In this document: positions 4,366-48,003 of the stretch, piece after piece
How positions within the stretch are numbered: the first letter of the stretch is position 1
How the letters are laid out: the number at the start of each line of letters is the position of its first letter
From: Sipunculus nudus
Taxonomy: Eukaryota > Annelida > Sipuncula > Golfingiida > Sipunculidae
Direction of reading: 5' to 3'
Assembly: GCA_026874595.1 (NCBI GenBank)
Contig: CM049306.1
Location: 41,538,019 to 41,602,018, forward strand
Length of the DNA: 64,000 bases
Notes under the pieces: model-generated
Seen by the model: the letters and a program-made list of their open reading frames with translations, nothing else
The model's database searches: none
Told to the model about the DNA's origin: nothing
Made by a program: the position numbers and the translations under genes

Positions 4366-6333
4366 TGGAAATGCTAAAAATAGCACTGAGCACCTGTGTG
4401 TTGTTTACAGGGTGGCAAATACCTCGTTATAGACCGCTACCACGTTATACCGCTATATTAAGGGCTCCGACAAGTGACAGATGTACGAACCTTGTTGCAA
4501 AACATTCAGAAATGATGTTCATCAATATATACTTACGTCAGATATATTTGTTCATATTAGCTAATTTTTTCCCACCTTGCAATTGTTTACATTTCTGAGG
4601 GGTAAAGTTTTACCTCATTTGATACATTTGATTAAATTTCTGATGGGTATATTTTTACGAGATTTTTTATATAGTAATTTTTAATTTATGTTTCTGAGGG
4701 TTTTTTTCAATGATTGACAACAGATAGATCTTATCTTAAAGCTGATTTCAGTGATATTTTAAATAAAAAGGACTTTGCTTATTTTCTGACTGGGTGACCC
4801 TGATGAACCTTGATATTGCTTAAATGTGCGTTTGTGTTTGAATTGCATATTTCATGGCTATTTTCATTTGCCTGAACTTTCCTTTATTTGTTGTAAGCTT
4901 TATATTTCCACTGACCATATAATATACTTCAAAATTAACTGTTAATTTTGCAACCAGTCTCCTGTACAGGTCATTTTAAACTTTCCAGCTGTTTTAGTAA
5001 GAAAGTGCACTGATTGGTTTGTCAAAAATGTTAATTTAGTGGAAATTTATTATTTGTTAATTTAAATTGATAAAAGTTTATTTAAAAAGTAGAAAAATCA
5101 TGATATTTTACAAAAGTTTATTTTTTACCAGCCCTTCCAGAAAGTATTGAGGATATTCTGCAGATACAGAAAATACTTTAGTTCACTTGACAGTGAGCAC
5201 ATATAGTTCCTATATATTCATTTCATCATTTGTAAAATTTATATGGAAAAAATGGCGCTTTTCATTTAAAAAATTTTGAATTATATTTATTTTTATTTTC
5301 CCTCCTCCTCCCCACCACTTTTCATTTCTTCGTCCGAGAAACTTTTTATTAAATAAGTAAGGCCTTATTGTCTGTCGTAATGGCTCAAAGAGGGCGCCAC
5401 CACACATTATTTGCCTTTACGACGCAAACGTTTACTGAAGTAAAGCTTTGGCCAAAACGCGGAATGTATTCTGTATATAAAGATAATTATAATATAGCTG
5501 TTTACGAATAACGTGACTGTCATATTCATTCTTATATGTACTTGTGAAATAACTATCAGACAGTCGACAAGTAGACTATATATACATAACAAATTATTTG
5601 GTCGATAATCAGATGTTTTGAATTATAAATATATTAATTTTATATGACATCTTGTACGTTGCCTAGATATATTAACGTTGACATATATACTGTGGCACTG
5701 TTTTCATTCTTTATTCCTTTAGGAAAAAGAGCAATGTGCATAGAGAAAAGACACACACAAATATGTATACATTTATGGCTTGACACAATTTATTAGAAAA
5801 GGAGTAGGAATTTATGTTCCTGAAATCAATAAAATACATAAATCCTTAATGTTCATAACGCCAACGCAAGTATCAGGGCACTTATTCAAAACAGAACATA
5901 ACCCTGTACATTATTATGGGTACATATGATTATAAGACTAAATACTGAAATAATTAAGGCAAAGCTAAAAAATAAACTTTTTTACGGATTGCGGATCATT
6001 GTTTTTATTAATGAAGTCTACAGTAAACATTGTCTTTGTGCTCATGTCTCGATCCCTTGAAAATCATAAATGTAGCACAGAAAATGGATTAAAGTTTGTG
6101 TTGCTTAACCATTTTTCAAGAATTGCAGCATTATGTTTTAATTTATTCCTGAAACTACAAGTTTTTTTGTCTCGACCAGTACATGTAGCAGTTGACAAAA
6201 AAATCACAATATATTACTTGTTTACCTTGACCTAATGCTAGATAGATCATATGATATATAGCCCTTGAGGTTAAAATCAGAGTGTGTACTTACGCATGTT
6301 TGTATGTACGTCTATGTGTATGTTTATCAACAG
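4366..6333. other. AT-rich non-coding stretch
   Basis: Short open frames here are AT-driven and not protein-like. If the patch at 4.2-4.36 kb is a promoter, this would be first intron or leader. The 3' edge ends in TTTATCAACAG, a usable splice acceptor for the ORF that follows. Confidence 0.45.
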
Positions 6334-7123
6334 GAACCAGACCAAATGCACGGAGGGACTTGGGCCAGTTAGCCCGAGTCATTCACGACAAAAGATTACA
6401 GGTAAGAGGGTAAGTAATCTTTTTTCAAGGATTTCAACAGTGTTCCGGAGGTTAGGGAAACTCCCAAGAATTTTTAGGAGAAAATTGAACCGAATGTCTT
6501 CAAGTTTTCGCCGGAACATTGTGTATCCGGTTAATGAGGAAAATGTCGAAATGTTGGGTAACTCATGCAGTACCGAAAGTTTGGCGTCTATTACATTCAG
6601 CACCCCCAGGGCAAAGACCCCCACTAATTCTGTTGATACGATGCATTCGCCAGTTGCTGGTGAATTTTTCACTCTGGATGACTTTGCTAGCTCATGCAGC
6701 TGCTGTTCAACTATTTATTCAGAGTGCAGCCCCGCGCCTTCCAAAAGTGTTGACTCCCATAGTTTACTGTCGATTTGTACAGCAGCCTCCGCAAGCTGCA
6801 ATGGGTCTGACACCATTGAGTTTTTGGAGCTAGAAGCTGACATCCTCAGTGACTCATCTTCAGCCTTTAGTTCCTCAAGACCAGTGTCCTCCGATCATTC
6901 CTTGGGAGAAGCTGACGAGGCAAAAATAAGTGAGGACGTCCGTGATGTCCTGAACTCTATGATGGATGCCATTTGCTCTACAGTTGACCGCCCCAGTACA
7001 ATTGCTCCAGTTGACAGTTGTTCTTCAGACTTTCTTCTGGAGCACGAGGTCATTGATGTTGTTACATCTATGGTACAAGCGGTCTGTTTTGCCGAGCGGG
7101 TCGAATCAGCCAGGGATTGCTAA
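6334..7123 (+). CDS. Unassigned Ser-rich protein, probable terminal coding exon
   Basis: A 263-codon open frame ends at TAA 7121-7123 and continues upstream to 6284. I place the left edge at the acceptor-like CAG 6331-6333; the first in-frame ATG upstream is 6296 and another is at 6494. The product starts with a strongly basic segment (KRVSNLFSR, FRRLGKLPRIFRRKL), continues through a long Ser/Cys/acidic region and ends with two related amphipathic segments, DVRDVLNSMMDAICS and EVIDVVTSMVQAVCF. Codon use looks coding and composition differs from the flanking AT-rich DNA. CAGGTAAGAGGGTAAGT near 6402 contains two donor-like sites, so part may be spliced out. I recognise no family; a nuclear or regulatory low-complexity protein is a guess. 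Confidence 0.45.
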
Positions 7124-21090: not shown

Positions 21091-24000
21091 GTATGCATTT
21101 CTTGATATTATATTATGTTATATTATATTATTTTATATTTTTTGTATCTTAATATACTATATTAGAAATATATCGTATATATCATATTACAATATATCAA
21201 ATCTTATTGAATTATTATATCGATGACATTATATTACATTTTATATTAAATTTTGAAATATATTTTTATTTTATTTTATTTTATCGATATTATATTCAAC
21301 CATATTATGTTATCGATATTAAATTTAATTATACAAAAATATGTTGTATTGTATATGAGAATATATGTAAATGACAAAGTGTTACTTTTGAGAATGACAT
21401 AAAACTTTAACTTTCCTATAACTGAAAACGCTACAATCCAGTGTGTGCACCAGGATTGTTTATATAGCTTCCAGTGTATATTCAGTTGTCATATTCGTTT
21501 CTTACCTGCTCCTCATTTGCATAATAACAGGATGAGAAACAAGAAACGTTCACCATAACCATACAGCTCAAACAGGTAACACATTTTTATATACATTTTC
21601 TTACTGGTCTTTTTTTTCAATATACTTAACATATTTCGAGCATAGTTTTATCAGTTATCAATTTATGAAATGTTCACTGTGTAAATAAAATAAACGCAAT
21701 ATTTCAGGCTAACAATATGTTACTAATCGCTTTGATTGCCACTGCCCTCAGTCTGTTATGAAACCATAATAAAATAGAAATCTGCATTCTGGGGACGTAC
21801 GCCTATATACCGTGTGTGTGTGTGTGTGTGTGTGTGGGGGGGGGGGGGATTGTCCCTATTGTAGGATGCTCCTAAACACCGCATTCATTAATTCGGCCCA
21901 TATTTCCTGGTTCATTCGTGCACAAGTGACTGTGCATTTGTGAATATACCTTGATGGCGTTCCTGAATCCGAATCATGTGCGGGATCAACACTAAACTCT
22001 TATGGATTCTTTATTGTCCCATTCTCAAAATGCCCTGAATTTTTTTCACGATTTCCGTTCATGATTGCGTGAGTTATGTTGTGAACACACACACACGAAC
22101 GGGGGGTTAACGCATACCCTCTTGGCGGAGGCGACATATAAATTTATAATGATATTTTTATTAAATGACCATCCTTGACATTAACCATATAAGCAGTCAC
22201 TCTGTTTTTTACTGAATATTCACAATATATTATTTTATATATAATTATGATATATGGTGTTCGGATGATTATGACCTATGTCTATAGAACGTACGACACC
22301 TGGTAAAGTAATCTCCAATCCTTTGGGGTGTTGCTTGCCGATTTCATCTGAAAACACAATAAATCTGAACACAATGCACTCAAGCGCGAATAAAACCTAT
22401 AATAAACGAACCGAACCAGGCATCTTGGCTCGTATCGCCTCTGCTGAAATTAATGCATGTGTACGCTGAAAACTATATGTTGTCCTTAATAATTAGTAAA
22501 TTAATGATTAAACTTTAGCATGTGTTATGTTTCTGCACGATAAGTATGTAATGAATATTATATTATCACAGGTTGTCAAAGAAATAAGCCTGTGCTTATC
22601 TTCAAGTATCGCATATTGGATCATCTTGTTTCGTCTCCAAAGATCATTTACACAGCATTTTGATCTTCTTTCAATGTCAATCTGTTTTACTATTTTATGA
22701 ATTCAGAGAACAGCTTACGGTGCATAGTTGCTTGTCAGAAGATATTCCCAATTCTTTTCATACAAATATCATTACGTTTATATCATTAAGGGTAAACTGT
22801 CGCTCTCCCTCTCTCTTTCTCTCTCTCTTCACACACACACACACACACACATAAATATATGCAAAGGAATGTGATGGATCTGAATCACTACCGTTGGTTG
22901 CGCCTCATTGGCTCATCAGGTGACTGAAGTTTAACTATTGCGATATTGTTTTTTTTATCATTTTTTTCGCACGTTTGGCTGCCCTTGGTCCATGGCGAGA
23001 GGTAGATACAATTTAGAAAAGTTTGTTCATTAAATTCTTTTGTTTGGAGGTTAAGATTGCTAGCAAACACAGTTTCCATTTAAATATAACAAACATGCTC
23101 CCATCTGCTACAGTAAGCATCATTGATAAGGTATGTTCATGTGTATAAGAACTGATTCATTGATTCTACCAGTGCCCATGATGTTTCACTTCAGCGTTGG
23201 AAAGACTATGTTTTGCAATGGAACCCAGAGGATTATGGGGACATCACCACAATGTTTGTTCCTTCCGCCGACATTTGGATTCCGGATATCGTATTATACA
23301 ACAGGTAAAACACTTTTTACCCAACCCACTTGAGACACTCGTATCGCCATTTTGTCCCTCTGACATAATAAATAGTCTATGGAGTAGGCCTATCAGTCCT
23401 ATATAAATGCCTACCGAGTCGTGTATTCACGGCTACACACGGAAAGGGCGACTGATACTGAATGTTCGGTTCAAGGGGCGGATTTTTTTTTTTGGGGGGG
23501 GGGGGGGGGGGGCTGTGAAATGAGGACTTATGAGATAACCTGGAAAGGTCCTTAGGCTAGGAAAAGGGGAGGGCCCAGGCCTTAAAATTTATGTTGAGCC
23601 CCTTAAAATGATTCTGGACCCCTCGACTTAACATCTCGCGATAATTTTTTTTTCTGCACCAAAATATTTTTTGTGAACTTTTGTGAGATTTTATGTCGAG
23701 ATCTCGTGATAAATATTTATTTTTTCCGTGTCCTAAATCACCGTAGATAAGATAATAGTTGCACGGATAATAGTTTGTAAAATATTGTCACAGATAATTT
23801 TTCTTTGACAGCCGTTGATGCACACAACGGAAAGCATGTAAACATTTGGGAAATAAATTCTTTTTCGCTGAATTTGTTATTTCTTTCTCACATTAATTCC
23901 TTGATTTAGTAAAGTTTTTTTTTATTTTTTAGTGCTGATGCCACTTTTGGAATAGACAAGACATCCTTAGCTGTTATAAACCATACTGGTGACATCGAGT

Positions 24001-25882
24001 GGAACCCGGCTGTTAAGTTTCAGAGTACATGTTCCATTGATATCGAACTCTTCCCTTTTGATACTCAAGAATGTCATCTTAAATTGGGAGCGTGGACGCA
24101 CGATGCCCTCGCTGTGGACGTGAGACACGTGCGCCACACTGACGGTTCTTGCGCCCTTGGGGAAGTCATCATGAGCGGCGTGGACACCAACGAGTACCAA
24201 AATAACACAGAGTGGGACCTTTTACCAACTAAAGCCCGTTATTACATCACCAGCTATCCTAGTGGTGGACACTATGGGCACTTGGAGTTCAATTTAACCA
24301 TCTCTAGAAAGAAGCTGTTTAACGTAATCACTGTGATAATCCCGTGTGTGGCCATTTGTTCGACCACCTTAATGGTGTTTTACCTGCCCACTGAGTGCTG
24401 TGAGAAAATCACCCTGTGTACCACCATGTTGACCTGCTTGACCTTTTTCCTCAACATGGTATTTGATATCAGTCCGCCGACTTCCAAAGCCACACCGTTG
24501 ATAGGGAAGTACCTCCTTTTCATTATGTGTATTCTGGTGTTAACAACGTTTATGACGGTTCTGGTGCTAAATGTGCATTTTCGAACTCCGGCCACCCACA
24601 CTATGTCTCCAATGACACGGAGAATTTTTCTACACTTTTTACCCAAGGTTCTTCTCATGAGACCCCCGATGAAGGAGCAGAAGTTGAAGGTTCCGGCCAC
24701 CGTGAATGGTGTAGTTATGAGGAATTTCTTCCGTAGCCATAGACAGTTCAGCTCTGATATGGGCGGAATAGATGGCTATACTGATGGGGCACCCGGACGA
24801 CGTAAATTATTTGGTTATCGTTTCTCTGGAAAGATATCGGCCCCCGCTCGCCACGCGATGGACGGTTTGGACGTGGTTGCTAAGCACATGCGTGAAGCGG
24901 ACTCGGAAAAGAAGGTCAGATGTCATGCAATCATAGACAGCCTGCTCAGAAAATAAGAAATACAAATAAATAGTATGAGTAAATATAAGTAATCTCTGTT
25001 ACAAAACTAAAAAAACTATTGCAAATAGCAATTTAACCATTTTGGATAAATCATGTTATAAAGATTTTCATTAAAATACGGACTTCTTTATTTTCTGCAA
25101 AGACCTGTCAAAGTTACCAAATCGGAAATACAAAAGTTGAAGCAACTGGGTCCATAGATCTTGTTTCAAGGGGGAAATGTCCCCCTCACTCTTTAGGGAA
25201 TAAAATGCATAATTTTTAACATAGCAACGTTGAGGTATTTTTTTTTATTCATATAGACAGTTTACTGCAGTTGGTCTGCAGTTTTGCATCTCATATTGAG
25301 AATAATATAAGAAATTGTATGCTTCAATTGCACAACTGAATAGTCATAAATGTTAGCATATATTGAATGTTTTATTAATATGTAAATGTAGGTCATTTAA
25401 ATTAAATTTAAATTATGAAAATAAAATGTTGACAATTTAGCAATCATTTGCTTTTTTAAACGAAATATGTACTCAGTATTATGTGGTGGGAGAGGGAAAA
25501 TTATGATCTTCTTGGAGGGTAAAGTTAGTCCGCTTTGTTATTACATGGACTTGTTCTGGGTTGGTTTGAATGGTTCCTTTAAGTTGGGCATCTGTCCGTC
25601 CTCCAGTTGACTGTCTCCATCACATTTTTCCCGCAAACAAAGCCCATGACTTGATGTGTCATCTTTTTATGATATATGTCTGTATGTCTCTTGTTGCAGA
25701 CCAAGGAGGACTGGCAGTATATCGGGCGGGTCCTGGATCGCTTCTTCCTCTGGATATTTACGGCGGTATCTGTGGTGGCGACAGCTAGCTTATTCATAGC
25801 CGGGGAAATCCAAAATGAACTTTCTAAAGGGCTAACAGATAAGACAACCAAATGGACCTATTGTTACCCGGATGTGAATTGA
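20869..25882 (+). CDS. Receptor gene A: nicotinic-type Cys-loop channel subunit, non-alpha
   Basis: Joined exons 20869-21090, 21531-21575, 23195-23304, 23933-24914 and 25700-25882 give 513 aa. It is a plasma-membrane subunit of a pentameric ligand-gated ion channel. A signal peptide (about 1-28) precedes the extracellular domain: loop-[13 protein letters not shown] (117-128), Cys-loop C159/C173 with FPFD, and loop-B GAWTHD. Loop C reads [12 protein letters not shown] (234-245), so the vicinal Cys pair of alpha subunits is absent. M1 has the family Pro-Cys (263-264). M2 has E283 at -1', T293 at 9' and D304 at 20'. M3, a loop of about 100 residues and M4 (ETW-type DWQY...DRFFLW) follow. The loop-D Trp is Gln86. 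It is most like gene B: 5 differences over the 40 residues from E283. It probably needs an alpha-type partner to form a conventional site. Length and exon phases fit an intact gene. Confidence 0.92.
21091..21530 (+). other. Gene A intron 1, TTATA-rich
   Basis: The intron starts with about 240 bp of degenerate TTATAT/ATTTTA repeats and no GC content, then ordinary sequence to the ATAACAG acceptor. Confidence 0.7.
21531..21575 (+). CDS. Gene A exon 2 (45 bp, loop D)
   Basis: Fifteen codons, [15 protein letters not shown], between ATAACAG and GTAACA. This 45-bp exon is a classic nAChR exon. The residue normally Trp (loop D) is Gln at its twelfth position. Confidence 0.9.
21576..23194 (+). other. 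Gene A intron 2 with compound microsatellites
   Basis: It contains (GT)n running into G13 at 21812-21848 and (CT)n running into (CA)n at about 22803-22851. The open frames at 22278-22469 and 22660-22854 lie wholly in the intron and show no domain. Confidence 0.75.
23195..23304 (+). CDS. Gene A exon 3 (110 bp, loop A)
   Basis: It encodes [14 protein letters not shown] through WIPDIVLYN and ends two bases into the next codon at AACAG|GTAAAA. The length of 110 bp is the ancestral nAChR exon length. Confidence 0.92.
23305..23932 (+). other. Gene A intron 3 with T11-G19 tract
   Basis: GGGGCGGATT followed by T and then G19 (23494-23512), with CCCCTTAAAATGATTCTGGACCCC further on, fits the dispersed 'GGCGGATCCAGGGGG' repeat family also seen at 50485-50525. 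Confidence 0.6.
23933..24914 (+). CDS. Gene A exon 4: Cys-loop, M1-M3, cytoplasmic loop
   Basis: 982 bp, entered after TTTTTTTATTTTTTAG and closing the split Ser126 codon. It holds everything from SADATFG to EADSEKK. The donor is AAG|GTCAGA. The frame stays open 13 codons into the intron, so intron retention would give a subunit without M4. Confidence 0.92.
25700..25882 (+). CDS. Gene A exon 5: M4 and C-terminus
   Basis: It enters after TTGTTGCAG with [18 protein letters not shown], spans M4 ([17 protein letters not shown]) and ends in a 27-residue extracellular tail finishing YPDVN. Confidence 0.9.
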   Translation, partial: TKEDWQYIGRVLDRFFLWIFTAVSVVATASLFIAGEIQNELSKGLTDKTTKWTYCYPDVN

Positions 25883-33900: not shown

Positions 33901-36664
33901 TTTCGTAAATAGGGGTACTAAACATCAATTTACTGAATATATTAGCAGCAAAATCAACACCATTTTTCAATCATGCACTTAGTATATCAATTTATGCACT
34001 AACTACACTAAATTGTAGAAAGGACATTTTTCTTCTTAATACTTGTACATTTGATTTGCTAAGAATATTTATTATTTTAACTCTTAATTACAAAGAGGTT
34101 ACCTTGAATTTAGCACCGACATTTTTTTCCCAACTTATTTCGAAAGCTAAGCTCAAGAACTTATTTCGAAAGCAAAGCTCAATCTAAATAGTAAATACTT
34201 CAATATTTATAATTCGTAAAACTTATTTTTTTTCTAGTGCTGACGTAACATTCGGAGTACCGAAGACCGTGAGCGCCACTTTACACCATAATGGCGTCAT
34301 CAACTGGAATCCACCGGTCACTTATCAAAGTTTATGCGCTATCAATGTTGAGCTGTTCCCGTTTGACAGCCAAGAGTGTTACCTGAAATTTGGATCTTGG
34401 ACACACGATACGTTTGCGGTTGATATTCGGCATTTCAAACATGACGAAGGCTATGATTTAGCAGACGTCATCAGTAATGGTACAGACATAGAACAGTACA
34501 GCATAAGTACAGAATGGGACATACTTAGTATGAACGCAAAGTGGTATGCTAAAAATTACCCCTGCTGTAACAGCGCCTTCTCGGATATCAAATTTAACTT
34601 TACTATCAGACGGAAAACACTATTCTACACTATCAATCTTGTGATACCATGCGTGGCCATTTGTTCACTGACCATAATGGTGTTTTACTTACCAGCGGAG
34701 TGCTGTGAAAAGATCACGCTTTGTACCACAATTCTGACCTGCTTGACCTTCTTCTTGAACTTGGTACTAGATATCAATCCTCCAACTTCAAAAGCCACGC
34801 CGCTGATCGGAAAATACATACTCTTCACAATGTTTGTTTTGGTGTTCTCAATCTTTATGACCGTCTTTGTATTAAACATACACTTTCGGACGCCGGCTAC
34901 GCATACTATGTCACCGCTCACACGTCATATATTCCTTGAGTTTTTACCCAAGTTATTACTTATGCGACCACCGATGTCGAACAAGGTTGGCCATCCCACT
35001 ATGAATGGCGTGGTGCTGCGAGGGTTCTTTCGCAGTAACAGACATTTCAGTACAGACATGTCGGCACTTGATGATGATTATCCAACCACCGGGCGTCGAC
35101 AGTTCAGAGGCTTTAGAAAGTCCGGGAACCTGTCAACAGCTGCCCGTCAGGCCATGATAGGTGTGGGCATGGTGGCTAAGCACCTCCGGGAACAAGATGC
35201 TGAGAAAAAGGTGAGGGGGTCGTCTATGATTAACATCGCTGATATAGTCAAGTCTGTACCATCCGAGTCCGAGTGCATGTCCATGTAACGGCCACACGTC
35301 AGAGTCCAAGTCAGAGTCTTCAGGTTCTAGTCCAATTAAGTCCGTCATCTTCGAATTCAAGTCGTTTGGAACCTGAGTCCAAGTTTAATGCAGATCTTCT
35401 TATTAAAACAAATCTAAAAGGGAAATTTGAGATTTTCACCTATATTTTAACTTAATTTAATGAATTTACACATGTTTTTACATGAATGTTTGATCACACT
35501 TGGCTTCCGATGAAGAGCTTAAGCTTAGTAAAGATAATCCATTTATTTTAATATTCTACTAGGAATTCGCACATGTGTGTAAGACTTAACCTTCTACTGG
35601 ACTTGATAGACTCTCGAGTCTAAGTACGAGTCCCTTGAAGGTGGACCCGAGTCCTACATCACTGATTAATATTGTCATAATACGTACGTTTGGCAATATT
35701 CCATTGTTTCCATGGGGCGGGTTACGTTGTCAGCCGTGTTTATTTGTTCTTTATTCGTTGTTTTATTTGCTTTGCTTGATTTCTTTGTCTGGACGCGGGG
35801 TTACCTGTAAACTCTTGCGTGTCAACTCTTTCTTTAAAATATTTTGGAGGGATCCGAAATAAGTCACGGGAGACCCCATTAAATTTGGGTAACGATCGGG
35901 ATGACGAGGGGCGGATCAAGTCGGATATTAAAATATTTTGTAGAAATTGTTTGAACGCGTTATGTCTGTTTTCACCCTTCATTGATATCTATTAGGACAA
36001 AATTACATCTGAGCCCTGATATTTTGTTGATAATTGCACAACACAGGCTTCTCAGCTTCATGTCGGGCATTTTAATTTGACTATACTTTTTTGGATTTAA
36101 CACCATATAACTCAGTTTCGTGATGTAACAAGAATGTGTTTTGGTGTAAGTATTTTGCCACACACTCCATTCACTCGGTTATATTTAATTCTGTAACCTT
36201 CTTTGTTGTTACTTTTCATGCCTCAACTTTTTTTTGTGTTTGTTAGAATGGTTTTGTGACAAGAGTGCAACAGCAAATATCATCCAGCTTGCTTAGCACT
36301 CAAGAACCTTTTCCCCGGTTTTTTTGTGAAGAGATTTAATCTCATTTTTTAAATTACTTTCCCAGTCTGAACAGTACCAAGTGCATTACCATAGCAAAAG
36401 CAGGAATGACTAACGGCAGAAGTTTGGGGCTTTAAAAAGGCAAATAAACCTTTTGTAACATTTAAGAAACCATTTTATTTGTGCTGGTTTAAAGTGGTTC
36501 AATTGTGTTTATTTTCGCAGGCAAAGGAGGACTGGCAGTACATCGCCCGGGTGATGGACCGGTTTTTCTTGTGGACGTTTACGGCAGTGTGTGTGGTGGC
36601 GACGGCGGGCATGTTCCTGGCCGCCAAAGCACAGGAGGACAAACGCCAAGCCATAGACCAGTGA
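30802..36664 (+). CDS. Receptor gene B: nicotinic-type Cys-loop channel subunit, alpha-type
   Basis: Joined exons 30802-30999, 33111-33155, 33630-33739, 34238-35210 and 36521-36664 give 489 aa. The first true ATG is 30802; the open frame upstream has only TTG. It has a hydrophobic signal peptide (MLFLLLPVLLLLG), loop [13 protein letters not shown], Cys-loop C151/C165 with FPFD, loop B GSWTHD and loop C NYPCCNSAFSDIKF. The vicinal pair C227/C228 classes it as alpha-type and able in principle to supply a principal face. The second loop-C aromatic is Phe232, not Tyr, and the loop-D Trp is Arg78. M1 has Pro255-Cys256. M2 has E275 at -1', T285 at 9', N292 at 16' and D296 at 20'. M3, a cytoplasmic loop and M4 follow, with an unusually short C-terminal tail (KRQAIDQ). 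Closest relative in the window is gene A. Confidence 0.93.
32119..32180. repeat. (AT)n microsatellite, interrupted
   Basis: Runs of AT broken by TTTA and AAATA, about 60 bp. Confidence 0.9.
32402..32625. mobile_element. Foldback / MITE-like 224-bp palindrome
   Basis: Two arms of about 112 bp meet at 32513/32514 (CCTAAACCGGTTTAGG) with essentially no spacer. The outer ends read GTATCCGCACTTGGT and ACCAAGTGCGGATAC. Inside, AAACCGGTTT recurs several times, and the central 80 bp of each arm match almost perfectly. The structure fits a non-autonomous DNA transposon of the foldback type. I could not identify a target-site duplication with confidence. Confidence 0.85.
33111..33155 (+). CDS. Gene B exon 2 (45 bp, loop D)
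   Basis: DEKNEMFTINVRLKQ between CATGTACAG and GTGAGG. The loop-D Trp position is Arg. Confidence 0.92.
33630..33739 (+). CDS. Gene B exon 3 (110 bp, loop A)
   Basis: QWEDYVLTWDPSEY through WIPDIVLYN, acceptor TTTTGACAG and donor AACAG|GTAACC, phase 2. Confidence 0.92.
34238..35210 (+). CDS. Gene B exon 4: Cys-loop, M1-M3, cytoplasmic loop
   Basis: 973 bp, acceptor TTTTTTTTCTAG, ending DAEKK at AAG|GTGAGG. The frame runs on for 25 codons past the donor to TAA 35286-35288, into a GAGTCC-rich dispersed repeat. Confidence 0.93.
35262..35665. repeat. GAGTCC/AAGTCC-rich dispersed repeat, copy 1
   Basis: It begins at the gene B exon 4 read-through with GAGTCCGAG and AGAGTCCAAGTC motifs, continues through TTTACACATG...CTTCCGATG, and closes with CTCGAGTCTAAGTACGAGTCC. 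A longer diverged copy with the same order of landmarks lies at 54165-54690. Confidence 0.65.
35666..36520 (+). other. Gene B intron 4, remainder
   Basis: No coding signal. The overlapping open frames on both strands at 35635-35982 look accidental. Confidence 0.6.
36521..36664 (+). CDS. Gene B exon 5: M4 and C-terminus
   Basis: It enters after ATTTTCGCAG with AKEDWQYIARVMDRFFLW, then M4 TFTAVCVVATAGMFLAA. Stop TGA 36662-36664. Confidence 0.92.
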   Translation, partial: AKEDWQYIARVMDRFFLWTFTAVCVVATAGMFLAAKAQEDKRQAIDQ

Positions 36665-42195: not shown

Positions 42196-42432
42196 ATGAA
42201 GAGGACATTATTCATAACGTCTCGTGACGTAAGGTGGGTCGCCATGGAGACCACCTTCCTCGTTCTCCTGAGTGTTTTAAATGGCGTGCTACCTGATCCG
42301 GACTCACGGAGACTTTATCATGATTTGTTTGTCAAGAGTGACTACAACAAGAACATCCGGCCGCGTCCTCACCGGCTCACCAATGCTACGACTGTTAAAC
42401 TAGGGATCAGCCTGACCCAGCTAGTCAACGTG
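42196..42432 (+). CDS. Gene C exon 1: signal peptide and N-terminus
   Basis: Seventy-nine codons. The signal core is TTFLVLLSVLNGVLP, followed by LYHDLF.KSDYNKNIRPRP. Donor GTG|GTAAGT. Initiation at 42196 or 42244 is undecided. Confidence 0.83.
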
Positions 42433-44903
42433 GTAAGTCCCTCGTCACAACCCCTAATGCAATAATAGGTATATTAAAATAAATTATCATAGGAAGTTGT
42501 AAATTCGTTGTTTCCCTACTGAAACAACGTCCAATTTTGTAATGATTATAATATAAATTGTTCATTCGTTGTTTCTCATAACCAGTATTGTACAATGGCG
42601 TAACCTAGTGCAATAATTATAAAATATGGGATTGCAACTCTATTGTTTCTCGAATACGCACAATCGTAATAACGTTTATTAATATCACAATTGTTACATT
42701 AGGGTTCCGATTGAAAAAAATGGTATTTTTTTATTGTATACAACATTTTACACAAACATAATACAAAATTTAATACAACAGCTTACACACACATAAATAC
42801 AATGTTGAAAACAACACATTGACATTTATAACAGAAATACATCAGAGCTAAGTCAAAAGCATTTATAAGAGAGGCAATAACCTTATATAATTACAAAATA
42901 CATGTTGGTATAGTGATATTTATATTATGAGACAAAAAAGTGACATATTGTGTTTTTTCGGGAGGTATGAATTAAATCTTGAATTGTTATCTTTCATGTT
43001 TGAGACTGAGTACGTTGACAATCATTGAATTTAGCATGACAGTGTTCTATAAATATAAAGACTAAATTGCATTACAATAGTAATATGTCATATTAAAGGA
43101 ATATGATAATTGTAAACCGTACATCAAAGTTAATTTAAATTACATGAAAGTGTTTTCTACAAAAAGTGGATTCCATTTTTTAAAGTGATTGATATAATTC
43201 CTTTCTTGTGAGCAAGAAAAATGGTATTACAATAGGGTGTTAGGGGTAAGAACCGTTTAAGCTGGTGTGCCTTTGCCCATGGGCATTGCCTATGCCTATG
43301 CATATGCTATACAGCAACTTTTAGTTCCAAGTCACCAAATGACTATCGGTCATGTATTTCTGTATTTGCAAAGAACATAAGTAATATACGAAAGGATAAA
43401 TATTCAGGTCTTATGGAGTTATTTTAACAAAATATAATGTCATTTATCAATTTATGTGCAACTTATCACAGTTGTGTTTATAACAATCACTTACTATTTC
43501 TTTATTAACGAATCACTACTAAATACTGTTGCGATATACGCGTGTTTTTTTGTTGTTTTTTTTTGTAGTGTTTCATTTAATTCACAGAAAATTCTGACGA
43601 CATTGATATAACAACTACAGCAGCAATAGTTAGTATTCAATGCCGTGTTAATACAAGTGAAGAGGACTGTGACAGTCCGTCGGCTATAGACTTTATAATT
43701 GCGTATTCTCCCTCAGCATACTGTCGATCACTCGTATCACTTTCGACCATAAAATATACGCATGAACGTGGTTTTTCTGCTAATGATTTTAACAATGCCT
43801 TCCCCTGATATTTAAATTACTGTAAATACCAGTAACACCGTCGGTTATAAGAAGTGTTGGGGGGGGGGGGGGGAGGGGGAAGCTAGTGGAACGTATTTAG
43901 AAAAGCATAATGAACCGCTAATAAGCTAATATTTAACTAAAACTTTTATGACTGCTTTCGCCTTCGTGTCACTGATCGTGTGCACACTCAAACGCTTGCA
44001 TGTACCCGAACGGTACATGTATATCCATGTACTGGATAAAGTTATCGTTATTTAATGCAGATATTTATTGTACATGAGTTTCTCTGTAGCATATGTTATT
44101 GATGATATTTTCAGGATGTGAAGAACCAGATTATAACAACAAATGTTTTTGTGGAACAGGTCAGTAAGTCTACAAACCTTTAACAAATCATGTATTTAGG
44201 ATCTCTTATATATGGGGGAATTATTGGTTATAGGTCCTTGAAAGCACAGCACATTTGTGTTTTTAAACCTAAATGATTCCAGATGAAATACATAAATACA
44301 CTGTGCTTCAACAGAGTAATATATATGTAGTCTTAAAAATAAAAACACACACCAGTTATATATGTTCGGTATAAATGTTCCATAGTTGATAAAAATCCAT
44401 GGAATAAGTTAATAAGCAGATTTTGTGTAACCGCATTATGTTTAATATAAATCTTCAAGCTTCTTTTCATCATTCGCTGATAATTAACATATTCCTTACA
44501 ATTAGGCATGTAATATTCATGATAATAAACCAAACATAGACAATCGTGTGCTCAATATATATTATTGCAACTCTCTTTTTACACTAGATGAAGGTAATTT
44601 TCTGCGATTTTAAATAAGCTCAAATACCAGTGGACTTTTCATATTAACCATGTAAAGAATTTTAAGATCTAATTTAATTATATTTCTTCATTCAAAACTG
44701 AAGATATGCAATGTGTATTAATGTTAAGTTTGTATTTATTACATTTTAATCTATAGGAATGGGAAGATTACAAACTGAGATGGAATCCTTCAGATTATGC
44801 CAATATTTCACGTATGTACGTTCCTCCTCAAGATATATGGACGCCAGATGTCGTGCTTTACAACAGGTTAGTGGTTTAAAATCAGTCAACTTAATTATGC
44901 TGA

Positions 44904-44945
<42 letters not shown>

Positions 44946-47900
44946 AGTAAAATATTAGTAAGTTGTAACATACCTTTTCTCAGAGCTTACGCTCGTATGT
45001 ATGTTTTTGATATTATCAAGTCCAGCTAGTTTGCATTGTGTCTTTGATGTGAACCAAATTACATGCCAGGAACCCCCAAAAAACCTCGCCCTGAAAATGA
45101 GAATTTTATATGCTTATTTACCCTATCCCCGACCACCAAATTATTTCTTAAACTTTGTAAATTTTACCACAGTTGGCGCATATTTTATCAGATTATGATA
45201 CATTTTTCCATAATTGTGATGTTAACTAAAAAACATTTATGGACTCTAAGCTTAAAATCAGTCAGCTGCATATCTGTTTTTTTTTTCTAGTGGATGACCT
45301 CATGTAATGCCAATGGTTCACTCGTCTGGTTTGCTTCGTACCGTTAAAATTATTTGCATCTATTTATCTAAAACTCTGCATTTAATTTAATCCATATATA
45401 TTTTTATTTGATCGTGAGAACATGCTCTGTTTAGTACTGGTTAAATGATAGTATAGCTTAGATAGGAGTTTTATTAAAAAGGTGGTGTGTTTCCTATCTG
45501 ATAAGTGTCCTTTTATCAACATAGTCACCTGCTTTGCATCAAGGTACTTACAAATATCTACAAGCGTTTATATTTGTTTATATTTATCATCTGTCCTTCT
45601 GCCTAAATTTGACTATTAATAATTGGATGATGTAACAAATGACTTTTTACAAAAAAGTTGCAAAACATACAGAAAGAACATTAAGAAAATGTTTTACAAC
45701 ATATGTTTAAAACTATAGAGCTCTGGTCCTGAGAATTTGTTTGTAATATCCCTCTAAAATGGGCAGAAGCTGGTTCAGCAGAATGATTTTGTTCTGGTTG
45801 CCTTACTGGAATGTGGAGCCATGTGACTGTCAAATCAAATGACCCCACAGGGTGATCAGATTTGATTCTCTTTGGGTCTACCTTAACCATGTATTATGTA
45901 TGAAAAGTTTGTTTAATGAGGCATTTCAATAAAACGGGACCCGATTACTTGATAGCTGTCGCCGACAAAATTCTCTAGTGCAAAGAAAAGGTATATTGTT
46001 TATGGCTCTATGATAGTTTGTTTCCAAGTTTTATATTCACATGCAGTGCAACATTTAAACATCTTTATATCAAGCATGGGTTTTTCTATATGACATATGA
46101 ACGTAAATATTCGATTAATTTATGATTTTTTTTCATTGTATACCTGATCATACCTCACATGTAATTTACCATACGTTTTCTTCTTCGTCATTTGCTCTGT
46201 ATATGTGTATTCTTTCAGTGCCGATGGCAACTTTACTGTGAAAAGACGGGCCAAAATAGCGGTACATCACACAGGCGTGATGAAGTGGCGCCCCCCAGCG
46301 GTGTATCTTAGTTTGTGCGAGTTCAATATCGCATTTTTCCCGTTTGATGAACAGACATGCTATCTTAAGCTAGGAAGCTGGACATTTGACGGGTTTAAAG
46401 TTGATATACGTCATCAGAGATTGAAAGACGAGGAAAGTTCATTTACCTTTGTCCAGGACGGCATCAATTTACAGGAGTTCAGCGAAAGCACGGAATGGGA
46501 TGTTATTGACGTCCCCGCGCAGAAATACAACACCGTTTACCCGTGTTGTCCGGAACCTTTCCAAGATATAAAGTTCAACATAACCATCAGGAGAAAACCT
46601 CTGTTTTATATCACAAATGTTATCTTGCCTTGCGTTTCCATGTGTTGCGTCACCGTTCTTGTGTTCTTCCTACCATCACGGAGCCTGAAGAAGATATCCA
46701 TGGCAATCACTGTGATGAATTCTCTGATTGTGTTTTTACTTCTGATCATTGAGATAACGCCTCCCATATCTAGTAATACCCCTCTGTTCGGGAAGTACAT
46801 TGTATTTACTATGGTTTTGATTGTAGGCTCTATAGCCGTCAGTGTTTTTGTCATACATCTACACTTCCAGTGTCCCGTCACTCATACTTTGTCTCCTTGG
46901 ATGCGCGAGCTGTTCTTTTGTATGTTGCCCCGCCTACTTTTGATGAGGCCACCACGAGTGTTTGCAACAAGTAGCAACCAGGGGTTTCACAGAGATCTTC
47001 ACTCCAACACTAAACATGTAAAAACCAAAAATACTATAAGACAAAATTTATATGACAATTATGAGGATTTTCAAAGTGCAGCAGACGATTTGGATGATGT
47101 GGGAAGCATATTTACCCCGACGTCTTCATACCAAGATCTGAAAAAGCTTCCGAAACACTTAATGTATACGATGGTAGGTGTGTCATCTATAGCGGATTAT
47201 CTTCAGCGGAAAGAAGAAAGTAAAAAGGTTAGTAACCCACTTTTAACATTCATACAGCCCGGCCGCACTGCATTTATATCTGATCAATTTGTCGTGTTTA
47301 TAATGCAGATCCAGTTTCAAAGGTAAATGCTTAAGCAGAATGTTTTCTTTTCTAATACTGGTCATTGATTGAACAATTACTGCAGAGGAAGTTAAAAAGG
47401 TCACAACAATTCCTATTATAAACACGTGAGCTTTTATAATGATTGCTCCATGGTTGGATGCAAATTGCAAATAAAACAGCCAATAACACCTGTTAACTAG
47501 GTCTGTATAAATGGTTTTCGTGTTTATAATGGGAAATTATCATGTTGACTGCTTGTTTTGTAAAGAATAATTTACATTTCAGGCTAACATGCAGACATCA
47601 ATCATACCAGTATATCCAGTGATATGCATTTTCGTTTTTAAAATACAGGAATTTTATATTTTACTTATATTTCGATCTGATGATATTTAAAAAGAAATTT
47701 GTATGTATTTTAAATGCTGTTTTTCCGAACTCGTGATTAAAGTAAAATAAACATTTTTTTCCGACAAAAACCACAGTACATGTAATCGTATGACTTTTGT
47801 TTCAGGTGAAGGCTGATTGGCATTTCGTTGCCCAAGTAATGGACCGGTTGTTTCTGTGGGTATTCGTGGGTTCGTGTCTCATCGGGACCCTGGGTATCCT

Positions 47901-48003
47901 GATTCAGGCTCCATCACTGTACGACCGGCGGCCTGCCCTTAAAGCCGAAATCCTCGACAATGAGTGCACCGTGTCCGGCTGCCAACATTTCCTATACAGC
48001 TGA
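42196..48003 (+). CDS. Receptor gene C: divergent alpha-type nicotinic subunit with basic pore-mouth residues
   Basis: Joined exons 42196-42432, 44115-44159, 44757-44866, 46219-47227 and 47806-48003 give 532 aa, or 516 aa from Met17 (42244), which has the stronger context GCCATGG and directly precedes the hydrophobic core. Features are loop A WTPDVVLYNSAD, Cys-loop C164/C178 with FPFD, loop B GSWTFDG, and loop C VYPCCPEPFQDIKF with vicinal C240/C241 and Phe245 in place of the second Tyr. The loop-D Trp is Phe91, a conservative aromatic. M1 has Pro268-Cys269. The M1-M2 linker and M2 are unlike genes A and B: LPSRSLKKISMAITV puts Arg285 at -4' and Lys288 at -1', where cation-selective nAChRs carry Asp and Glu. 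N298 is at 9' and E309 at 20'. M3, a loop of about 125 residues and M4 (LFLWVFVGSCLIGTLGILIQ) follow, with a Cys-containing tail. Confidence 0.92.
42433..44114 (+). other. Gene C intron 1
   Basis: AT-rich without coding signal, with a G15 run at 43859-43873. Confidence 0.7.
44115..44159 (+). CDS. Gene C exon 2 (45 bp, loop D)
   Basis: DVKNQIITTNVFVEQ between TATTTTCAG and GTCAGTAAGT. It is the closest of the three to the canonical nAChR exon, with Phe where Trp is usual. Confidence 0.9.
44757..44866 (+). CDS. Gene C exon 3 (110 bp, loop A)
   Basis: EWEDYKLRWNPSDY through WTPDVVLYN, acceptor TAATCTATAG and donor AACAG|GTTAGT, phase 2. Confidence 0.92.
44867..46218 (+). other. Gene C intron 3
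   Basis: It starts with a (GA)n tract at about 44907-44942. The short open frames in it are not part of the receptor and show no domain. Confidence 0.7.
46219..47227 (+). CDS. Gene C exon 4: Cys-loop, M1-M3, cytoplasmic loop
   Basis: 1009 bp, acceptor TATTCTTTCAG, ending ESKK at AAG|GTTAGT. The frame remains open 32 codons beyond the donor, to TAA near 47326. Confidence 0.92.
47806..48003 (+). CDS. Gene C exon 5: M4 and C-terminus
   Basis: VKADWHFVAQVMDRLFLW opens the exon after TTTGTTTCAG. The tail after M4 has two cysteines (NECTVSGCQ). Stop TGA 48001-48003. Confidence 0.92.
   Translation: MKADWHFVAQVMDRLFLWVFVGSCLIGTLGILIQAPSLYDRRPALKAEILDNECTVSGCQHFLYS

Follow-up and report, generated by a model that had tools for sequence, protein, structure and literature searches.

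What may a nicotinic acetylcholine receptor (nAChR) subunit do when the Glu at pore position -1', by which cation-selective nAChRs are recognized, is replaced by Lys? This question is raised by gene C, one of three nAChR genes (A, B, and C) that stand in tandem on the + strand within the window, the whole 64-kb stretch of DNA that was analyzed from a genome of 1.43 Gb. Beyond the right-hand end of the window lie gene D, at a distance of approximately 10 kb, and gene E, approximately 100 kb away on the minus strand. Elsewhere in the window, positions 6284-7123 hold an open frame of 279 aa that is serine-rich and has no Pfam match at E 0.001.

Gene C was modeled as five exons spanning 42244-48003 and encoding 516 residues, with a frame open to the stop codon at 48001-48003 and GT..AG borders at all four introns (4/4). 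The exons are as follows:

42244..42432, + strand: exon 1, likely signal peptide METTFLVLLSVLNGVLP (by eye) and N-terminus, with a GT donor and a phase that fits exon 2
44115..44159, + strand: exon 2, 45 nt, DVKNQIITTNVFVEQ, the same size as the second exon of gene B
44757..44866, + strand: exon 3, loops D and A (KLRW, WTPDVVLYN)
46219..47227, + strand: exon 4, loop B, Cys-loop, loop C (YPCCPEPF), M1, M2, M3, MX, and the start of MA
47806..48003, + strand: exon 5, M4 (located by eye), C-terminus, and stop codon

A GA dinucleotide repeat occupies window positions 44909-44943 in intron 3. Pfam models PF02931 and PF02932 matched the gene C ORF at 46205-47323 with 110.2 and 115.5 bits, both above the cut-offs, and the presence of both ligand-binding and transmembrane domains places the gene among the Cys-loop receptors. 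The C-x13-C spacing of the Cys-loop is present (CEFNIAFFPFDEQTC), as are the vicinal cysteines of loop C by which nAChR alpha subunits are recognized, and the loop B Trp and loop D KLRW are kept. When gene C was searched against the PDB, the best matches were to the human alpha-4 nAChR (5kxi, 6ur8), and acetylcholine receptors made up all of the best 60 of 166 matches. On sequence grounds, gene C encodes an intact nAChR subunit of the alpha type. A pseudogene was ruled out by the open frame, splice sites, and domains. A recent duplicate or haplotig was also ruled out, given that a protein search of the genome (118 of 156 candidates scored) returned one copy of gene C and a next match only 51% identical. 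A pattern search for relatives on prokaryote contigs gave 18 matches and no relatives. The structure of exon 4 was predicted using AlphaFold2 from 12 aligned sequences, one of them gene C itself; with a mean pLDDT of 52 and a pTM of 0.29, the model was usable for helix limits only, and predicted M1 at 127-150 and M2 at 153-179 in exon numbering.

Pore positions were assigned from the PDB alignment and the codons of gene C:

46670..46699, + strand: M1-M2 linker, LPSRSLKKIS
46679, + strand: CGG, Arg -4'
46682, + strand: AGC, Ser -3'
46685, + strand: CTG, Leu -2'
46688, + strand: AAG, Lys -1'
46691, + strand: AAG, Lys 0'
46718..46720, + strand: AAT, Asn 9', replacing the gate leucine
46730, + strand: GTG, Val 13'
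46751..46753, + strand: GAG, Glu 20', extracellular ring, kept

In the 516-residue model, Arg -4', Leu -2', Lys -1', Asn 9', and Glu 20' are R269, L271, K272, N282, and E293. The 9' position corresponds to Leu251 of alpha-1. Human alpha-4 and gene C were aligned without gaps from M1 through M2; alpha-4 carries Glu -4', Gly -2', Glu -1', and Leu 9' where gene C has Arg, Leu, Lys, and Asn, and the two are alike in Lys 0', Val 13', and Glu 20'. The basic residues at -4' and -1' and the retained Glu at 20' had been proposed in an earlier, sequence-only reading of this DNA; the codons bear out all three (GAG at 46751), and its positions hold in the gap-free PDB alignment. Its numbering (Arg285, Lys288, and Glu309) names the right residues but runs 16 above the present model, which a second in-frame Met upstream of the exon 1 start, at 42196, would explain. 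Leu -2' and Asn 9' were absent from that reading. At the positions by which channel classes are told apart, gene C has Lys in place of the cation-selective Glu -1' and Leu-Lys in place of the Pro-Ala of anion nAChRs at -2'/-1', and it is without PAR, which sets it outside the GABA/glycine-type channels as recognized by a PAR-type M2 start and kinship.

The frequency of these residues was determined across M1-M2 exons of the genome. A first pass gave 84 rows, reduced to 79 without repeats and to 75 without four PAR-type rows, with Lys -1' in two. A second pass added 20 further stretches for a total of 102 rows, from which 7 PAR-type rows and one row without -1'/0' residues (L118) were removed, leaving 94 aligned nAChR-like exons. 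The number 94 is a lower bound, since scoring covered 150 of the 280 candidates from the Pfam transmembrane search and 118 of the 156 from the search with the gene C protein, and no fewer than five matches that span the linker lie outside it (C3:21.027, C9:61.968, and three on C11). Residues at -1' among the 94 exons were Glu (70), Ala (7), Asp (7), Gln (4), Lys (2), and Val, Asn, Leu, and Ser (1 each), and Arg or Lys occupied -4' in 3/94. At 9', Leu was found in 62, Val in 7, Asn in 5, Thr in 2, Ser in 2, and four other residues once each, with 12 rows lacking a residue; an exon ending within M2 has no 9' residue to show, and part of the sequence there may be intron. The Pro-Ala motif was present in three separate exons (L006, L007, and L107; SPAK). 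Given these separate exons and the count of 2/94, Lys -1' is rare among the 94 exons and is not the Pro-Ala signature.

Other pore starts were observed in the same alignment. Six exons (L102, L103, and L106 on C8, L104 on C4, L105 on C12, and L116 on C5) carry RPDR (Arg -3', Pro -2', Asp -1', Arg 0'), in which the Pro of anion channels is combined with the acid of cation channels. Three tandem genes at C2:44.10-44.12 Mb (L001, L002, and L004), each open in one exon and 467 to 499 aa in length, have the filter SIAK or SVAK, with Ala -1', Ile or Val -2', and no Pro, together with Arg 17' and Asn 20'. Four rows counted among the 94 (L095, L096, L097, and L086) have a linker two residues shorter with Gln -1' (GQK or AQK); these may not be nAChRs and perhaps belong to another receptor class.

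Gene C was grouped by tree with genes A, B, D, and E and with L012 and L014, both at C1:62.4 Mb, with a support of 100/99 and an inner branching order that is partly open. Its terminal branch measures 0.74 vs a median of 0.4. The main exons of the two window paralogues are as follows:

23934..24917, + strand: gene A main exon, Glu -1', Thr 9', no vicinal cysteines
34236..35213, + strand: gene B main exon, Glu -1', Thr 9', vicinal cysteines present

Within this clade, Leu -2' and Lys -1' occur in gene C only, and all six other members keep Glu at -1'. The loss of the acid at -4', to which the sequence-only reading had drawn attention, is real in gene C but not special to it, as D and E have Gln, L012 has Lys, and L014 has Asn at this position; A and B keep Glu. 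The 9' residue is Asn in C, D, E, L012, and L014 and Thr in A and B. Clustering of Asn 9' over the seven labeled rows is not striking alone (52/500 shuffles as low), and Asn/Thr 9' is treated as a clade trait because of the 100/99 group support and not because of the shuffle test. Polar replacement of the 9' Leu usually eases channel opening, and a clade-wide Asn/Thr 9' suggests that the gate is built differently here. The gate region of A and B is also unusual at Phe 13' and Asn 16'; position 13' is Val in C, D, and E, and Phe 13' in A and B might compensate for the changed 9' gate.

The other exon with Lys -1', which the sequence-only reading did not include, belongs to L015 on the minus strand at C9:9.136 Mb, on another contig than gene C. 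Its linker is LPSQSLKKISM vs LPSRSLKKISM in gene C, and that of its tandem neighbor L013 is LPSESAEKISM. Because this paralogue has the same Leu/Lys pair, a sequencing error in gene C is argued against. The L015 exons that encode the binding domain, M1-M3, and M4 are open, vicinal cysteines are lacking (non-alpha type), and the exon structure is unlike that of gene C in having an extra binding-domain intron, as in L009 and L013. A tree of 13 rows was built with the linker and early M2 columns left out; the pair had been chosen after the motif was seen and before the tree. L015 was placed with L013 and L009 (100/100), descent of gene C and L015 as one clade was rejected (AU p 1.6e-5), and two changes to Lys -1' were needed on this tree. 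The Leu -2'/Lys -1' pair would thus have arisen twice, or have moved as a very short tract.

Such a move could have come about by gene conversion, in which C received its linker from an L015-like gene. This concerns the origin only and is compatible with any function; it would give the motif a single origin, and the motif may then be neutral. The linker is indeed the stretch in which C and L015 are most alike, with 27/33 bases matching (rank 1 of 190 windows) and 10/11 residues alike, the top excess over D, E, L012, and L014 in 183 windows. However, codon identity at shared residues is not clearly higher there (5/9 in the linker vs 24/70 outside, P = 0.16), Ser 2' is TCC in gene C and AGC in L015, and the tract would span only about 25-33 bases. 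Separate point changes that converged on the motif account for it at least equally well, and we regard gene conversion as unlikely.

With regard to function, we see roughly an even chance that gene C is a functional alpha-type subunit, used mainly in heteropentamers, that makes the cytoplasmic filter less negative and yields a calcium-poor channel of low conductance. The partners of gene C would be paralogues with the usual Glu -1', as found in its cluster mates A, B, D, and E, so that the charge of the -1' ring would go from -5 to -3 with one Lys and to -1 with two. The resulting channel would be gated by ACh, would pass sodium and potassium, and would be calcium-poor and low in conductance, perhaps with some chloride leak, and the polar 9' residue common to the clade would ease its opening. 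Calcium limitation is ranked the likeliest of these steps, and the effect of Asn 9' is less certain. Excerpts of PMC12646802 describe a zebrafish slow-muscle receptor in which delta -1' Glu is replaced by Gln and the reversal potential is insensitive to calcium, as well as Ciona receptors whose calcium permeability was lost by E to Q; excerpts of PMC5447003 give zero calcium current for alpha-7 E237A. Fitted constants taken from the latter excerpts reproduced the alpha-7 value of 10.4% when applied here. For an otherwise all-alpha-like pentamer, under the same constants (PMC5447003), a single Lys lowered the calcium current from 57% to 2.5% and a second Lys lowered it to 0.05%, an estimate that extrapolates a vertebrate fit without any Lys -1' and in which k for -1' has p = 0.08. 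Gene C is taken as a calcium- and conductance-limiting heteromer subunit because -1' ring mutants lose calcium and because of this arithmetic. The interpretation given in the sequence-only reading is supported in part: its expectation that cation permeation should be weakened in any pentamer with gene C fits, above all for calcium, the -1' ring work excerpted from PMC12646802, PMC5447003, and PMC8011927. The long end branch of gene C could alternatively mean relaxed constraint.

As a counterpoint, gene C homomers or assemblies of C with L015 would have a fully positive ring, and a calcium-poor cation channel would then not be the right account. Five Lys at -1' might then make an ACh-gated chloride channel without Pro-Ala, by a second route to anion permeation. 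Anion selectivity of gene C, raised in the sequence-only reading, is possible, and both Lys -1' subunits also swap a small -2' residue for Leu. Among the 94 exons, Glu -1' was lost in 15/17 with a bulky -2' (Ile, Leu, Val, Pro, or Phe) vs 9/77 with other -2' residues (Fisher p 1.5e-9), although this test counts exons as independent despite their kinship, and Pro rows make up nine of the 15, RPDR exons accounting for six of these nine; with the Pro rows set aside, the association rests on six exons. According to Cymes and Grosman, residues adjoining the filter reportedly tune charged side chains. The cation-channel residues Val 13' and Glu 20' are retained, which argues against anion flow. Excerpts of PMC8011927 point in both directions, in that alpha-7 E-1'A was anionic in simulation and 5-HT3A E-1'A slightly anion-selective by experiment, whereas alpha-7 E-1'A alone remained cationic in experiments; in PMC6800317, also excerpted, one Arg at alpha-1 Leu251 gave chloride conductance at positive potentials. 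Taken together, this second route appears doubtful. C and L015, with and without vicinal cysteines, could pair, but their meeting in one cell is supposition, and we hold it quite improbable that C (alpha) and L015 (non-alpha) are the halves of one ACh-gated chloride channel, with a five-lysine filter ring and a polar 9' gate in C, amounting to a second, Pro-Ala-independent sign change reached twice in one genome.

The same residues might instead silence the channel, such that pentamers with Lys -1' and Asn 9' reach the membrane, barely conduct, and allow C to damp other receptors of the cluster. Reversed charge in the narrowest ring favors damping, and the extra paralogues would make it plausible, but the main binding-site residues (vicinal cysteines and loop B Trp) are kept although damping does not need them, and decay would hardly have produced this pair a second time, in L015, by chance; we give damping a slim chance. 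ADAR disfavors an A preceded by G. RNA editing could restore Glu if the first A of the -1' AAG were edited and the codon then read as GAG, for which both C and L015 have the codon, but the A to be edited is preceded by G in both genes (CTG AAG), and Leu -2' and Arg/Gln -4' would stay unusual, making editing the most improbable of these accounts, with very little in its favor.

Debate continues over the side chains that determine charge selectivity in pentameric channels, and engineered mutants conflict on this point (excerpts of PMC8011927). Among the titles and abstract openings listed from the open-licence literature, none reports a natural Lys -1' or Asn 9' in an nAChR. Two natural Lys -1' subunits, each with Leu -2', and a clade with Asn/Thr 9' are ready-made test pieces that bear on what a ring made basic at -1' does, be it to limit calcium, to block cations, or to pass chloride, and on how an animal copes with a polar gate.

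Among known systems, the bivalve nAChR expansion of 99 to 217 genes (Jiao et al. 2019, in excerpt, PMC6896357) resembles the present genome in its high copy number and its genes arrayed in tandem; with its own arrays and more than 90 nAChR-like M1-M2 exons, this genome would fit a bivalve. Haemocyanin, looked for as a lineage marker, gave no match, and neither did its control. As a difference from the expansion of Jiao et al., gene C has introns and is not a retrocopy. The word "pore" is absent from the main text of that paper, and pore residues are not named in its abstract or section 9. Excerpts of PMC4055736 give Pro-Ala as the published anion-nAChR signature, in agreement with what the sequence-only reading had said of known anion nAChRs, and in this genome that motif stands separately from gene C. 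The Pro-Ala anion nAChRs of Lymnaea and Schistosoma (SmACC) are, like gene C, a lophotrochozoan nAChR lineage without Glu -1' (PMC4055736, in excerpt), but they have Pro-Ala where gene C has Leu-Lys.

For gene C as a calcium-limiting subunit of heteropentamers, the comparison lies with the muscle gamma/epsilon subunits (Gln -1'), in which one subunit type likewise weakens the negative -1' ring. These subunits have a neutral Gln and carry Leu at 9', whereas gene C has Lys, is of alpha type with vicinal cysteines, and has Asn 9'. Receptors with muscle gamma/epsilon have a reversal potential without calcium dependence (PMC12646802, in excerpt). By analogy, the effect of gene C on calcium permeation and conductance is most likely similar to that of the gamma/epsilon Gln, but stronger.
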